Source: Pseudofrankia inefficax
GTDB lineage: Bacteria; Actinomycetota; Actinomycetes; Frankiales; Frankiaceae
DNA: 64,000 nt
Assembly: GCF_000166135.1 (NCBI RefSeq)
Contig: NC_014666.1
Coordinates: 1,984,001 to 2,048,000 of the forward strand
Direction: 5' to 3'
Made by a program: the position numbers and the translations under genes. The notes under the pieces were generated by a model, which did not search any database, was not told where the DNA came from, and saw only the letters and a program-made list of their open reading frames with translations. Of this stretch, positions 14,055 to 63,187 are shown one piece after another; the stretch's first letter is position 1; the number at the start of each line of letters is the position of its first letter.

Positions 14055-14175
14055 GTGACAGCCCGAGCCGGGCGGCGCTTCAGCGGTTGGTAGCCCGAGC
14101 GGGTGGCTCCAGCGGGTGACAGCCCGAGCCGGGCGGCGCTCCAGCGCGTGGTAGCCCGAGTTGGGTGGCGAGCCG
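14055..14175. repeat. Tandem repeat, period about 61 bp with 30-bp sub-units
   Basis: GTGACAGCCCGAGCCGGGCG occurs at 14055 and again at 14116. Within each period an AGCCCGAG core occurs twice, giving four sub-units. The array and the rest of the gap up to hpnH at 14455 show no credible gene. Confidence 0.7.
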
Positions 14176-21978: not shown

Positions 21979-24135
21979 TCAGGTCGGGTCGGCGACCGGC
22001 TCGACGACGGCGAGCAGTGCGTCCAGGGCGACCCGGGCGCCGACGGCGACCAGCACGTCCTTCACCAGTCCGGCGACCGGTGCCGTGATCGCGTGCTCCA
22101 TCTTCATCGCCTCCACGACCGCGAGCCGCTGGCCGGCGGCGACGGAGTCCCCGGCCGCGACGTCGACCGCGATCACCGTGCCGGGCATCGGGCTGCGTGC
22201 CTGCCCGTCGCCGGCCGCTGCCGCGACCGCGCCCGGCTCGCGGACCCACTCGCCCAGCGGCCAGGCGGCGCCGCCGGCCCCGACCCACAGCGTGCCGTCC
22301 GGACCGTCGGCGAGCCGCCAGCGCGACGTGACGCCGTCGAGGGTGACGAGCAGCTCGGTGCCGGCGGGGCTCTCGACGCGGCGGGCGGCCGCGGCGATCG
22401 GCGCCCGCCCGTCGATCCGCACCGCCGCCGCCGCGGGCGTGCCCCGTACCTCCACGCTGGGCCGGGCGCCGGCACCCAGGTCGAGGGTCCAGCGCAGCCA
22501 GGTGTCCTCGCCGACCCGCCAGCCGGACGGCACGTCCCACGGGTCGATGACCGGACCGGCCGGCTGCAGCCGCAGCAGCTGGGCCAACCCGTAGACGGCG
22601 AGCGCGTCCGCCGGCGGCCCGACCCCGCCGACTTCGGCCGAGGTGTTCTCGGCCGAGCCCCGCGACGCCGTGCCCGGCGCCGCTGAGCCCTCCGACGCCG
22701 TGCCCTCCGACGCCGTGCCCTGTGACGCCGTGCCCTGTGACGCCGTGCCCTCCGGCGCCGGGGCGGCCGTCAGCTCGGCGAGATGACGCTCCACCAGGCC
22801 GGTGTCCAGCCGGCCCGCGCGCACGTCCCCGTTCGCGAGCAGCGTCCGCAGGAAGCCGATGTTCGTCGTGACGCCGAGCAGCACGGTGTGCCCGAGCGCC
22901 GCGTCCAGGCGGCGCAGCGCGCCGGCCCGCTCCGGCGCCCAGGCGATCACCTTCGACAGCATCGGGTCGTAGTCCGAGCCGACGACCGTGCCGGCGGCGA
23001 CGCCCGAGTCGACCCGGACACCCTCACCCGTCGGCTCGGTCAGGGCCAGGATCTCGCCGCCGGTCGGCAGGAAGCCCCGGCCCGGGTCCTCCGCGTAGAC
23101 GCGGGCCTCGACCGCGTGCCCGGTGAGCGTCACGTCCTGCTGGCGCACCCGCAGCGGCTCGCCGGCGGCGACCCGCAGCTGCTCGGCGACCAGGTCGAGG
23201 CCGGTGACGAGCTCGGTCACCGGGTGCTCGACCTGCAGGCGGGTGTTCATCTCCAGGAAGTAGAAGGTCTCGGGCTCGTCGCCCGCGACGATGAACTCGA
23301 CGGTCCCGGCACCGACGTAGCCGACCGCGGCCGCCGCGGTGACGGCGGCCTGGCCGATCCGCTCCCGCACGGCACCGCCGTCGGGGAGCGCCGTGAGCAG
23401 CGCCGAGGGCGCCTCTTCGATGATCTTCTGGTGGCGTCGCTGCAGCGAGCACTCGCGCTCACCGAGGTGGATGACGTTGCCGTGGGCGTCGGCGAGGACC
23501 TGGACCTCGATGTGGCGCGGACTGTCGACGTAGCGCTCGAGGAACAGTGTGTCGTCGCCGAACGCGCCCGCGGCCTCCCGGCGGGCCGAGGCCACCGCGT
23601 CGGCCATCTCGGCCGCCGCGCGCACGATCCGCATGCCCTTGCCGCCGCCACCGGCGGACGGCTTGAGCAGTACCGGGAACCCGATCTCCTCGGCCGCCTC
23701 CGCCAGCGCCGCCGCGTCCAGGCCGGGCTCGGCCCGGCCGGGCACGACCGGCACCCCGGCCGCCACCATCGCCTTCTTCGCGGTGATCTTGTCGCCCATC
23801 ACCTCGACGGCGTGGGCCGGCGGCCCGACGAAGACGATCCCCTGCTCGGCGCAGGCCGCGGCGAACGCCGCGTTCTCCGACAGGAAGCCGTAGCCGGGGT
23901 GTATCGCCTGCGCCCCCGTCGCCCAGGCGGCGGCGAGCACGGCGGTCGTGTTCAGGTACGACTCGCGGGCGGGCGCCGGCCCGATCCGGACCGCGACATC
24001 CGCCTCCCGCACGTGCCGGGCGCCTGCGTCGGCGTCCGAGTAGACCGCGACCGACCGGATCCCCAGCGCCCGCAGGCTCCGGATGACCCGGACGGCGATC
24101 TCCCCCCGGTTCGCGACGAGCACGGTGTCGAACAT
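21979..24135 (-). CDS. accA1: Acyl-CoA carboxylase alpha subunit (biotin carboxylase + BCCP)
   Basis: The protein (718 aa) contains a biotin carboxylase domain ([59 protein letters not shown]) and a C-terminal biotinyl domain with EAMKMEH near residue 675. It carboxylates biotin with ATP and bicarbonate for transfer by the AccD1 subunit. Pairing with AccD1 and AcdH points to 3-methylcrotonyl-CoA carboxylase in leucine catabolism. Between the two domains is an odd linker of repeated [10 protein letters not shown] pentapeptides (encoded near 22663-22760). Translation starts 21 bases after the accD1 stop. Confidence 0.93.
22663..22760. repeat. 15-bp tandem repeat coding the BCC-BCCP linker
   Basis: The sequence GACGCCGTGCCCTGT, with one- or two-base variants, recurs in register inside accA1. 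It encodes about six Gly-Thr-Ala-Ser-Gln/Glu pentapeptides in the flexible linker. Copy number may vary between strains. Confidence 0.75.
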
Positions 24136-38281: not shown

Positions 38282-38459
38282 GCTCCGATTCTAGGAAGCG
38301 ACGTTGCGCCGCCGCGCTCAGCCCACCCCCACATAGTCTGCGTTCAAAGCGGTCCTGCGGGACCGTTGCCGAGCTGGCTGTCGGTCGCGACGTGTCCGCG
38401 ATCGGAATGTCGGAATTTCGGATGTCGGATTGTCGGAACTTCGGAATGGAGGTGGGCTC

Positions 38460-59681: not shown

Positions 59682-60275
59682 GTGGCGGCGGGTGATCCCG
59701 GCGGCCCGTCGGCGGGCCGCTCGGGCGACCCGGCCGGGGCGCCCGGGTCCGGGCCGCCGGCCGGCCGGCCGCGCAAGCCGCGCCAGCGAGCCGCCCGCCG
59801 GCCGCTGCCGGTGGGGGTCTGGCTCGGGGTCGACGTCGGCACCGTTCGGATCGGTGTCTCCGTGAGTGACCCGGATGGGGTTCTCGCACTACCGATAGGT
59901 ACGCTTCGTCGCGACGTGTCAGACAACAGCGATCTCGCGCAGCTGGCCGAGCTCGTACACGAACGGCGGGCGGTAGCGGTGGTGGTCGGTCTGCCGATGA
60001 CCCTCTCGGGTGAAGAGGGTCTGGCAGCCCAGCGGATCCGCCAATACGCACAGTCGCTGTCCGCTCGCGTCGCCCCGATTCCGGTCCGTCTCGTCGACGA
60101 GCGGCTGACGACGGCGGCGGCGCATCGCAGAATGGCCGAGCGAGGGCTGAGCTCACGAGCCCGCCGCGGTCTCGTCGACCAGGAGGCAGCCGTGCAGATC
60201 CTGCAACACGCGCTGGACGTGCGGCGCGGCGCGCCGCCCGCGCCCGCCGCCGGCGGCCCGACGGAAGATCGGTGA
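59682..60275 (+). CDS. ruvX: Holliday junction resolvase-like RuvX (YqgF)
   Basis: The 197-aa protein starts with a 45-residue Gly/Pro/Arg-rich leader. The RNase H-like fold follows: GVWLGVDVGTVRIGVSVSD (first Asp), AVVVGLPMTLSGEEG, and VRLVDERLTTAAAHR (Glu), ending LVDQEAAVQILQHALD (Asp). YqgF/RuvX acts on nucleic acids, probably in pre-16S rRNA end processing or recombination. The start is a GTG at 59682, 17 bases after alaS, and the end overlaps mltG by four bases. Confidence 0.94.
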   Translation: MAAGDPGGPSAGRSGDPAGAPGSGPPAGRPRKPRQRAARRPLPVGVWLGVDVGTVRIGVSVSDPDGVLALPIGTLRRDVSDNSDLAQLAELVHERRAVAVVVGLPMTLSGEEGLAAQRIRQYAQSLSARVAPIPVRLVDERLTTAAAHRRMAERGLSSRARRGLVDQEAAVQILQHALDVRRGAPPAPAAGGPTEDR

Positions 60276-63187
60276 GCGAGCGCTGGGACCTCGACAACGG
60301 TGTCGGGGGCGCGGCCGGGTACGGGGGGACTGACCCGTGGGCCGCGCACCGGACGGGCGCACGCCCGGTAGACCCGTTCGCTGTGGAGTCGCCTGAACAG
60401 CCGGCCGACATCTCGGTGGGCGGTGGACCGGTTCTGGGCGGATCGCCCGGCGGCCAGCCCGCGGGCGGCCCCACCGGCGGCTACCCGGCGGCCAACGGCG
60501 GGTACGGCGGCGACGCCTTCAGCGTCGGCGACCAGGGCTATGGCGCCACGGGGTACCCGGCGGCCACCGCGCCCGCGCCGGCCGCCACCCCGGGGTACAG
60601 CGACACCACCGCGGCCTTCTTCGGCTCGGGAACCGGGGTCTGGTCCAGCTACCAGGCACCCGAGGCACCCAGCGGGTACGAGATACCCGGTCCGGCGGTC
60701 GCCGCCCCGTATGTCGGCGGTCCCTACCTCGGCGACTCGGCGGCCCAGGGTGCCGACAGCGCCGTCGCCTACACCGAGACGTCCACCGGGTACCACGCCG
60801 CGCTCGGCTACTCCGACGGTGGCCAGGGGACCGTGGTGGCAGGGCAGGGCACGCTCGGCGGCGCGCAGCAGGCGGGCTACCAGCAGGCCGGCTACCCGAC
60901 GGGCTACCTGGAGCCGGTCCAGACCGGTTATCTGGAACCGGTCCAACCAACCGGCTACCTGGAGGCGGTGCCCCAGACGGGGTATCAGGAGGCCGTGCAC
61001 CAGACCGGCTACCAGGAAGTCGCCCAGCAGACCGGCTACCAGCAGGCCATCGGCTACCCGGACGCCTTCGGGCAGCAGGCGCAGGCCGCTGCCTACGACT
61101 ACCAGTCCGGCTACCAACAGACCGGGGTCAACCCGTCGACCGGCTCCTTCTCGACCGCCGGCTACCAGCAGGCCGTCCCAGCCGTCGAACAGAGCGGCTA
61201 CCAGCACGCGGTTCCGGCCGTGGAGCAGAGCGGCTACCAGCAGGCAGTTCCGGCTGTCGAGCACAGCGGCTACCAGCCTGCCGTTCCGGCCGACCAGCAG
61301 ACCGGCTACCAGGCCGCCTATCCGTCCGGGGCCCATCCCGCGACGGGCGGTCACGTCGTCACCGGTGGCTACGCCACCGAGCAGTACCTCGCCGACCCGT
61401 ACCCGCGAACCGGTGGTCTCGCCCGGCCGGTCCTGCCCGCGCAGCCGGCGAGCCCGGGCCTGGAACCCGGCTACGCGGCTGTCGTCCCGGCCGGTTACCC
61501 CGACGCCGGCTACTCGGCGGCGGTGCAACCGGCCGGCTACGACGCGAGCGGCCAGGCCGCCGCGTTCGGAACCGCAGGCGGCGCCACCCAGGCCGAGGCC
61601 TACCCGGCCGACGGCTACCCGCAGGGCACCGGCGGCTATCAGGCCCAGACCGCCCGCTACAGCGACGAGCCCAGGCAGGCCGGCGCCGGCACCGGGCCTC
61701 GGCCCCCGGCTGACCTCCCCGCGGCGGGCGCGGTCCCGCCGCCCGCCGCCGAGCCCGGCGAGGGCGGGACCCGCTCGGCCCGGCGCGGCCGGCGCGCCCC
61801 CGACCGGCGCACCGAGGCGCTGAACTTCCGGATCGACCCGCCCGAGGACCTTTACGCGCCGGCCGAAGAGGACTACGCCGACGAGCCGCGTGGCCGGTTC
61901 GACCAGGTCCCCGCCGCCGCCCCCCGGCGCGCGGGCAGGGCCGGCGCCCGCGGCCAGAACGGTCGGTTCGTCGCCGCGCGCGACCACGCCGACAGCGGGC
62001 TGGACGACCTCGAGGACGGCGACGAGGACCGGCTGGACGACAGACCGAACGACAGGGCTCCCCGGTTCGAGCGGCCGCGGCGCGACGACCATGGTGACCG
62101 GGCCCGCCGCCGTCGCGCGGCGCCGAAGCTCATCGCGATGCTGCTCGTGCTCGCCGTGCTGCTCGGCGGGGGCATCTACGCGGGCGGCAAGGTGCTCGGC
62201 CGGATGACCGGCGGCAAGGCGATCCCGGACTACCCGGGCCCGGGCTCCGGCACCGCCGAGGTGAAGGTCGCCCAGGGCGCGACCGCGACCGACATCGCCG
62301 GGACGCTGTTCGCGGCCGACGTCGTCAAGAGCAGGCAGGCCTTCATCACGGCCGCGGCCAACGACCCGAACTCGATGAAGATCCAGCCGGGCACCTACCG
62401 GCTGAAGAAGCAGATGACCGCCGTAGGAGCGCTCGCCGCGCTGCTGAACTCGGCCAACTCGATCTACCGGTTCACCCTGCCGCCCGGCCGGACGGCTGAC
62501 TGGCTGATCACCGAGCTCTCCCAGCGGCTCGGCGTGCCGAAACAGACCTACCAGGACCTCCTCGATCACCCGGCGGGCAAGCTCGACCTGCCGGCCTACG
62601 CGAACGGGCACGTCGAGGGCTACCTGCTCCCGTCCACCTACGACCTCGACCCGAAGGCGACGCCCGCGCAGACGCTGAACCTGTTCATCGACGCGTTCAA
62701 GGCGCAGGCCGCGAAGATCAATCTTGAGGCGGTCGCGCAGCAGGACGGGATGACGCCGGACCAGATCGTCACCGTCGCCTCCATCATTCAGATGGAGGTG
62801 CCGCGCATCGACGACGGCCAGAAGGTGGCCCGGGTGATCTACAACCGGCTCAACGACAAGACGGGCAAGTACCAGAAGCTCGACATGGACTCGACGACCC
62901 GGTACGCGGTCCACAAGCCGACCGGGGCGTTGACCCAGAGCGACCTGAACAATCCCAGCCCGTTCAACACCCGCCTGCACACGGGCCTGCCGCCGGCCGC
63001 GATCGCGAGCCCCGACCTGTGGGCGCTGACGTCGGCCCTGCACCCGTACACCGGGCCGCAGGGGGCCGACGGGCAGCCGTGGTACTACTTCGTCGCGCTG
63101 CCCAAGTCGAATGTCACGATCTTCGCGAGCGAGTCGGAGTGGCCGGCGGCGCACGCCAGGTTCATAGCCGAGGGCGGCGTTGGCTGA
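60272..63187 (+). CDS. mltG: Endolytic murein transglycosylase MltG with long low-complexity N-terminus
   Basis: MltG cuts nascent peptidoglycan glycan strands near the membrane. The protein (971 aa) has about 600 cytoplasmic residues rich in Gly, Tyr and Gln. They include TGYQEAVHQTGYQEVAQQ-like repeats. A membrane helix (KLIAMLLVLAVLLGGGIYAGG) follows near residues 618-640, and then the YceG domain. The catalytic Glu is in ASIIQMEVPRID, where the second acidic residue of the usual SIVEKE motif is kept. The start is a GTG overlapping ruvX by four bases. The repeat region is encoded by 36-bp tandem units. Confidence 0.93.
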   Translation: MSERWDLDNGVGGAAGYGGTDPWAAHRTGARPVDPFAVESPEQPADISVGGGPVLGGSPGGQPAGGPTGGYPAANGGYGGDAFSVGDQGYGATGYPAATAPAPAATPGYSDTTAAFFGSGTGVWSSYQAPEAPSGYEIPGPAVAAPYVGGPYLGDSAAQGADSAVAYTETSTGYHAALGYSDGGQGTVVAGQGTLGGAQQAGYQQAGYPTGYLEPVQTGYLEPVQPTGYLEAVPQTGYQEAVHQTGYQEVAQQTGYQQAIGYPDAFGQQAQAAAYDYQSGYQQTGVNPSTGSFSTAGYQQAVPAVEQSGYQHAVPAVEQSGYQQAVPAVEHSGYQPAVPADQQTGYQAAYPSGAHPATGGHVVTGGYATEQYLADPYPRTGGLARPVLPAQPASPGLEPGYAAVVPAGYPDAGYSAAVQPAGYDASGQAAAFGTAGGATQAEAYPADGYPQGTGGYQAQTARYSDEPRQAGAGTGPRPPADLPAAGAVPPPAAEPGEGGTRSARRGRRAPDRRTEALNFRIDPPEDLYAPAEEDYADEPRGRFDQVPAAAPRRAGRAGARGQNGRFVAARDHADSGLDDLEDGDEDRLDDRPNDRAPRFERPRRDDHGDRARRRRAAPKLIAMLLVLAVLLGGGIYAGGKVLGRMTGGKAIPDYPGPGSGTAEVKVAQGATATDIAGTLFAADVVKSRQAFITAAANDPNSMKIQPGTYRLKKQMTAVGALAALLNSANSIYRFTLPPGRTADWLITELSQRLGVPKQTYQDLLDHPAGKLDLPAYANGHVEGYLLPSTYDLDPKATPAQTLNLFIDAFKAQAAKINLEAVAQQDGMTPDQIVTVASIIQMEVPRIDDGQKVARVIYNRLNDKTGKYQKLDMDSTTRYAVHKPTGALTQSDLNNPSPFNTRLHTGLPPAAIASPDLWALTSALHPYTGPQGADGQPWYYFVALPKSNVTIFASESEWPAAHARFIAEGGVG
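60900..61303 (+). repeat. Coding tandem repeats in mltG
   Basis: Four 36-bp units (61160-61303) encode SGYQxAVPAVEQ-like dodecapeptides. Upstream (60900-61060) are looser units of 27-30 bp coding GYLEPVQT and GYQEAVHQT peptides. Copy number may vary. Confidence 0.8.

Follow-up and report, generated by a model that had tools for sequence, protein, structure and literature searches.

Close described counterparts of the protein discussed here are found in Firmicutes. In Enterococcus faecalis, the PASTA kinase IreK phosphorylates the predicted-disordered cytoplasmic segment of MltG, the kinase and MltG co-purify, and substitutions at the site alter the response to ceftriaxone (PMC12369325). In Streptococcus suis, phosphorylation of MltG at five Thr went down in a kinase mutant, with directness unproven (PMC8707513), and an additional cytoplasmic domain is present in the MltG of Streptococcus pneumoniae (PMC8135044). 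On the kinase side, the juxtamembrane domain of StkP is disordered, and some substrates need it to become phosphorylated (PMC12077195). No account of an actinomycete MltG arm appeared among the literature matches listed, which covered open-licence papers. Here, we describe the MltG encoded in a 64,000-nucleotide stretch of Pseudofrankia inefficax (the window; contig NC_014666.1 of assembly GCF_000166135.1, positions 1,984,001 to 2,048,000 of the forward strand), whose product carries a long Tyr-rich cytoplasmic arm ahead of its membrane helix. This arm is real and under selection, and it elaborates a known enzyme in a genus-specific way.

The gene (60272..63187, + strand) is an open reading frame of 971 amino acids that combines the arm with one transmembrane helix and a YceG ectodomain. 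Its protein scored 205.8 bits against PF02618 (cut-off 32.4) and 112.7 bits against TIGR00247 (cut-off 103.4), and did not reach the narrower model NF007619 (PRK10270.1; 66.6 vs. 532 bits). Since the transmembrane helix spans residues 620-638 by hydropathy (62129..62185; residues 619-633 in the structural model), 619 residues lie in the cytoplasm. The catalytic YceG (MltG) ectodomain (residues 664-954, 62261..63133), delimited by domain search, would face outward, as we infer from the family, and by Foldseek matched the solved MltG structures 8yoa (best, E 1.8e-19), 4iiw, 8yq7, and 2r1f. By alignment, Glu842 (62795..62797) is the equivalent of the catalytic E218 of Escherichia coli, invariant in two alignments (16/16 and 19/19 rows). 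A dead enzyme was considered on account of a Gln at the first Glu of the E. coli IIEKE motif, and was rejected because the catalytic second Glu (E218) is kept.

The preliminary description of this DNA reported about 600 GYQ/GY-rich cytoplasmic residues before the membrane helix (60272-62130), and we recovered them, with 31 GY and 11 GYQ. Composition, shuffles, low predicted confidence and selection delimit a low-complexity Ala/Gly/Pro/Gln/Tyr arm at residues 1-540 (60272..61891), which holds 44 Tyr (8.1%) and far more GY (31 vs. 7.4) and GYQ (11 vs. 0.6) than shuffled sequences. FUS-like domains are dominated by Ser, Gly, Gln, and Tyr and carry [GS]Y[GS] repeats. Here, Ala (17.6%), Gly (16.9%), and Pro (11.1%) lead, ahead of Gln (8.7%), Tyr and Ser (5.0%), and [GS]Y[GS] occurs 6 times vs. 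2.1 expected (p 0.02). With this composition, the label "FUS-like" is loose. Between the low-complexity arm and the helix lies an Arg/Asp-rich juxtamembrane segment (residues 541-619, 61892..62128).

Two repeat arrays, genuine but diverged, lie within the arm: an imperfect one of ~27 base pairs (bp) with TGYLEPVQ / TGYQEAVH units (60875..61040, 72% matches), and one of 36 bp with four SGYQxAVPAVEQ units (61159..61312, 4.3 copies, 83% matches). In the repeat part (residues 185-360), aromatics are spaced more evenly than by chance (coefficient of variation 0.47 vs. 0.88, p 0.0004), which was not significant in residues 1-184 (p 0.28), in residues 361-540 (p 0.88), or across the whole arm (p 0.27). 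A protein search of the same genome with the repeat region returned itself plus one chance match (E 0.73) and nothing else. Elsewhere in the window, short tandem arrays with units of 15, 32, and 8/23 bp lie at 22652-22760, 14055-14160, and 38402-38448, respectively. In an AlphaFold model, a prediction built on a shallow alignment of 19 family members, the predicted local distance difference test (pLDDT) score was < 50 at residues 1-489 and 495-616, with no secondary structure ahead of residue 619; block means reached 74-96 across residues 651-970, the last block excepted. Thus, the cytoplasmic N-terminal segment of this MltG is predicted to be disordered.

PF02618 was present in 33/35 genomes of the family, with two MltG copies in three of the eight genomes of the genus and one in the other five. 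Arm length and composition were compared in relatives, as proposed in the preliminary description. All seven genus genomes readable at the mltG start, our own included, carry long related arms of 576-698 residues with 4-11 GYQ; in the eighth (G007), a contig end cuts the gene. In the genus alignment, these seven arms keep the islands WDLDNGVGG, [DE]PW, RP[VI]DPFAV, and ADI within the first ~50 residues (WDLDNGVGG ... DPW ... RPVDPFAV ... ADI in P. inefficax, residues 1-50, 60272..60421), DPYPRTG (residues 375-381, 61394..61414), and RRTEALxFRI, which is part of DRRTEALNFRIDPPEDLY (residues 511-528, 61802..61855). The sister genera, in contrast, have shorter and different arms. Most family members outside the long genus copies have 40-299 residues: the arms of genera g2 and g6 span 106-299 residues, mostly of acidic GY repeats (GYQ in 0/18 read), and those of g4 and g7 span 40-53 residues (four read), with the MltG starts of G021 and G023 being unsure. 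GYQ was absent from all 24 other family MltGs read, from the cut G007 copy and from the three short paralogues of the genus.

Within the clade of three species formed by P. inefficax (G000), G006, and G004, purifying selection acts on the arm, most strongly on its aromatics and Arg. The ratio of non-synonymous to synonymous substitution rates (dN/dS) of residues 1-540 was 0.26 (G000/G006) and 0.36 (G000/G004). For the same pairs, it was 0.16 and 0.34 in the repeats, 0.35 and 0.21 in the transmembrane helix plus ectodomain, and 0.42 and 0.49 in the charged juxtamembrane segment. Between G000 and G004, Tyr, Phe, Trp, and Arg changed at 4/72 arm positions and other residues at 107/453 (Fisher p 1.6e-4), compared with 3/39 and 22/313 in the transmembrane helix plus ectodomain (p 0.75). 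The preference was also seen in the other two pairs of the clade (p 0.013 and 0.0013; the three pairs are not independent of each other), and reached p 0.014 in one of five sister-genus pairs. Our neutral model has few A and T sites, making its expected Tyr counts rough; the Fisher comparison is independent of it. Thr in the repeat core changed in only 1/10. The 36-bp array counts four units in each of the three species, with small insertions and deletions only; this number is stable, and the ongoing expansion suggested in the preliminary description is unsupported.

A matching arm occurs on a PknA-like kinase. An exact-codon pattern of three GGCTACCAG words matched three genes in the P. inefficax genome and none in the reversed control: MltG, the PknA-like kinase, and a histidine kinase with a NIT domain. 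This pattern is a lower bound, since G004 scores 0 despite nine GYQ in MltG and seven in PknA. By Pfam, the PknA-like gene (L203:5238-7052, - strand) belongs to a cluster of PP2C, RodA, penicillin-binding protein (PBP), PknA and PASTA kinase genes, which we take to be the PP2C-RodA-PBP-PknA-PknB cluster; the PASTA kinase (L203:3221-5278, - strand) has a GY-rich arm. Kinase regions came from 29 of the 30 genomes searched with the cluster PBP (G029, with a split match, was left out), and PknA and PknB were separated by size and linker, and by Pfam in P. inefficax only. The PknA-like juxtamembrane arm carries 5-9 GYQ in 7/7 genus genomes (own included; G007 left out), vs. none in the PknA-like kinases of eight other family genomes. 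Among 22 non-genus genomes, a kinase linker was obtained from 20 (all but G128 and G061), with one GYQ in G022 (PknB-like) and none in the rest. The PknA arm measures 278 in G004 vs. 243 and 245 in the other two species; its array varies within the clade, unlike that of MltG.

Across the family, the GGCTACCAG pattern was found in 14/35 genomes and 3/7 genera. From 11 pattern stretches opened, nine GYQ proteins were kept, eight of them with the array beside a transmembrane helix; this count leaves out L243 and L244 (doubtful frames) and the pattern matches in G014, G028, and G029. Several Frankiaceae membrane proteins (L235, L236, L237, L238, L239, L240, L241, and L245) have GYQ/GYP-rich tails beside a transmembrane helix. 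MltG itself, with 11 GYQ before helix 620-638, is such a GYQ tail when at least three GYQ beside a transmembrane helix are counted as one. In genus g6, GYQ tails are present, yet none is on MltG (6/6) or PknA (2/2 examined), which counts against a simple drift of letters across whole genomes. Among 69 putative P. inefficax genes examined, a set that counts overlapping loci twice, at least two GYQ occur in MltG, PknA, and the histidine kinase and in no other gene. The histidine kinase is a membrane protein with a C-terminal GYQ array (L204:5372-9451, - strand), beside what we take to be roadblock-like and small-GTPase-like genes. The protein that is presumably FhaA was also tried as a GYQ carrier and discarded: in P. 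inefficax, its C-terminal part is Arg/Asp-rich instead.

We tentatively favour, with not quite an even chance of being right, a docking and regulatory arm that would tie MltG to kinase-controlled wall synthesis. The ectodomain of this membrane-anchored enzyme would cut nascent glycan strands outside, and the disordered arm in the cytoplasm, neither catalytic nor neutral, would most likely dock and regulate. Its Tyr, with Phe, Trp, and Arg, could make weak, multivalent contacts, with quickly changing Ala/Gly/Pro/Gln linkers between them, and the fixed islands DPW/DPF/DPYPRTG and RRTEALxFRI could bind partners. Pneumococcal MltG reportedly contacts EloR. The partner system here would most likely be the Ser/Thr-kinase branch of cell-wall control, with PknA as the likely partner because, in this genus, it carries a GYQ-repeat arm like that of MltG. 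Like-to-like contacts between both arms may bring the kinase and MltG together, and this proximity would let Thr/Ser of the arm become phosphorylated. The matching sequences suggest that the arms of the kinase and MltG meet; we infer arm contact, phosphorylation and an effect on MltG activity or position from one evolutionary co-occurrence together with the precedent. Scaffold domains had already been mentioned in the preliminary description as a type of such sequence, and a scaffold or docking arm gains support from the pLDDT < 50, the arm dN/dS of 0.26-0.36, the aromatics and Arg kept in the three-species clade and the islands in seven genomes. A more specific version is matching-tag signalling, in which PknA and MltG with the same GYQ sticker arm would meet in a membrane-bound cluster by like-to-like low-complexity contacts, with no folded docking site, and phosphorylation would loosen or tighten the cluster. 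We consider this version unlikely.

Several observations weigh against a docking and regulatory arm. That PknA and MltG both carry GYQ counts as a single evolutionary step, seen in one genus. Further membrane proteins of the family bear GYQ arms too, as does the histidine kinase of the same genome, so such arms may simply be widespread among cytoplasmic tails. Over the arm, Ser is kept least well of all residues (11/27 unchanged across the three species) and Thr is average (24/35), thus phosphosites are not visibly favoured. The constraint on Tyr, Phe, Trp, and Arg was not replicated in the single-copy clade of the genus (p 0.52, 0.59, and 0.9); it is thus shown for one clade only and was rejected as a genus-wide rule. 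Between G005 and G003, the ectodomains even change more at these residues (18/43 vs. 74/313, p 0.015), a comparison distorted by a mosaic ectodomain. Finally, Rv2553, "juxtamembrane", and "transglycosylase" gave no match in a word search of a Mycobacterium tuberculosis PknA/PknB paper (PMC7164672).

The alternative that survives best, unlikely but with a modest chance, sees the arm as a disordered linker under loose constraint, which slippage and duplication would lengthen and shorten in a genome rich in GC and which would serve for tethering only. The wide variation in arm length (576-698 residues in the seven long copies vs. 40-299 in most other family members), the quite different arm sequence in sister lineages and the absence of sticker constraint in the single-copy clade all fit such a linker, as does a paralogue in the same genome that manages with 42 residues. 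The charged segment, the least constrained part (dN/dS 0.42-0.49), fits it too. However, a loose linker sits poorly with the dN/dS of the arm (0.26-0.36) and of its repeats (0.16 and 0.34), with a start and islands conserved across seven genus genomes, with a stable number of repeat units in three species and with the matching arm on PknA.

Phase separation, which the preliminary description raised, is rather improbable as the role of the arm, whether the arm would drive or only join a condensate concentrating wall enzymes at hyphal tips or septa. The Tyr-rich sticker-spacer make-up, the even aromatic spacing in the repeats and the conservation of Tyr, Phe, Trp, and Arg in three species would agree with a condensate, and a bacterial membrane transporter, Rv1747, condenses via a disordered, kinase-controlled cytoplasmic part (PMC9312465). 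Despite this, the arm is rich in Ala/Gly/Pro instead of Ser/Gly/Gln/Tyr, and several mycelial genera do without it.

The latter point also decides the link to filamentous growth drawn in the preliminary description, which fails because several mycelial genera lack a Tyr-rich arm. The MltG family is present in at least 195 of the 197 class genomes drawn. In a named survey of 80 loci, 78 of them with a 5′ end (three more starts are the first in frame), the arm was < 70 residues long in 67/78, with 0-1 Tyr in 63 of these, and at least 10 Tyr occurred in 8/78 arms, all from Streptomyces (8/8), the only comparable genus in this set. Kitasatospora, Nonomuraea, Actinomadura, Kribbella, and Streptosporangium have arms of 16-55 residues with 0-1 Tyr, and Acrocarpospora MltG also lacks a Tyr-rich arm; we take all six genera to be mycelial. 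As a caution, in some of the named mycelial genera at least several hundred bases separate ruvX from the copy read, and another copy may lie there. Neither the named survey nor the class loci bore out a correlation of the arm with mycelial growth. Arms were read in 28 of the 30 best-scoring class loci (none from L058 and L073), several upstream starts (such as L053, L056, and L060) being plainly placed too far upstream, and further arms came from 42 genes in 40 regions picked largely for long open frames, one of them cut.

Streptomyces MltG arms span 215-333 residues with 6-12% Tyr, many of them Gln-rich, in all 13 counted (eight named plus five f15g21 genes taken for Streptomyces). Other long arms of the class are either Arg/acidic, with 0.9-1.6% Tyr (f14g34), or rich in Ala/Pro, with 0-0.5% Tyr (f29). 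Among arms of at least 30 residues, a DP[WFYL] motif was found in 13/13 Streptomyces (37 vs. 4.5 expected), 7/8 of our genus, 11/12 of g2, and 9/9 of an f14 subset, but in 6/67 others and 0/6 of g6. This excess is a lead only, since the motif was picked post hoc, after the sequences were seen.

A second MltG of 388 amino acids lies two genes downstream of the long copy and just outside the window (L003:4299-5465, G000:C1:2048299-2049465), and each of the three short paralogues of the genus has an arm of 42 residues. In the ectodomain tree, the short copies fall outside all long genus copies, which are grouped with 100/97 support, and the approximately unbiased (AU) test rejected a clade of short and long copies within the three species (p 0.0205), a result qualified by long branches and by the mosaic ectodomain found in the single-copy clade. 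A recent duplication that yielded an armed and a bare copy inside the three-species clade is thus rejected. Either the duplication predates the three species or the short copy has another origin; with a duplication older than the clade, the arm did not arise by it. A division of labour after duplication, with the long copy mainly as regulator or structural protein and the short MltG beyond aroE doing the cutting, is very improbable: the MltG pair in 3/8 genus genomes, the lower score of the long copy on PF02618 (209.5 vs. 244.2 bits) and the long stem branches of both copies (0.49 and 0.69) fit it, but the long copy keeps the catalytic Glu and the alignment-invariant residues, the sole MltG of four single-copy genus genomes bears the same kind of arm, and the duplication predates the three-species clade (AU p 0.0205).

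The mosaic ectodomain was seen when mltG of G005 (L017:6141-9320, - strand) was compared with those of G001 (L013) and G003 (L015). Through the arm and ~600 bases into the transmembrane helix plus ectodomain, G001 and G005 are 93-99% identical; beyond that point they are 42-75% identical, with flanks at 92-96%, whereas G001 and G003 are 81-93% identical along the entire transmembrane helix plus ectodomain. This pattern points to a catalytic half replaced by recombination in either G001 or G005. Since the ectodomain can be mosaic, the tree of the single-copy clade needs careful reading. Tandem mltG pairs were also observed in another actinomycete family (G095 and G127, f14 genera), with 0-2 Tyr in their arms, and many f15g21 genomes had two PF02618 matches, among the matches listed.

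In the single-contig genome of 8,815,781 bases, the gene order by Pfam is alaS, ruvX, mltG, shikimate dehydrogenase, and second mltG. The stop of ruvX (59682..60275, + strand, PF03652) and the GTG start of mltG share four bases, as GTGA. Upstream of the mltG start, a ribosome-site-like GGAAGATCGGTGA is present in 7/7 readable genus genomes, our own included.

MltG activity must stay confined to nascent strands, and the use of its cytoplasmic side for this has been described, as far as we found, only for Firmicutes. A Tyr-rich arm common to MltG and a wall kinase in one genus is a concrete, testable case of low-complexity sequence perhaps encoding partner choice in a bacterial membrane. It is also a starting point for interpreting GY-rich tails on further membrane proteins of actinomycetes.

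Compared with known systems, the arm shares Tyr-spaced disorder with G-Y steps with the FUS low-complexity domain, and differs in being Ala/Pro-rich, with 5% Ser and apparently few [GS]Y[GS], and tethered to the membrane. Streptomyces MltG also has a Tyr-rich cytoplasmic arm, but it is shorter and has other repeats and, in most of those shown, the start MTEYGRGxGSEPWHPEDPLYG; since it belongs to another lineage, it is probably a separate elaboration. The M. tuberculosis Rv1747 is likewise a membrane protein with a disordered cytoplasmic part tied to Ser/Thr kinases; it has FHA domains and forms droplets experimentally (PMC9312465), whereas a domain search found no FHA domain in our mltG product. 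The E. faecalis and streptococcal MltG proteins likewise have a single transmembrane helix, an outward YceG domain, and an N-terminal cytoplasmic segment alongside a Ser/Thr-kinase system (PMC12369325, PMC8707513, and PMC8135044), and the E. faecalis segment is predicted to be disordered (PMC12369325), as is the arm here. Unlike them, the P. inefficax protein devotes 619 residues, rich in Tyr and GYQ, to this segment, and the kinases are the actinomycete PknA/PknB in place of IreK/StkP. Thus, an MltG with a disordered cytoplasmic regulatory segment was already known, and what is new is the presence of GYQ arrays on this arm and on the PknA-like juxtamembrane arm in the same seven genomes.

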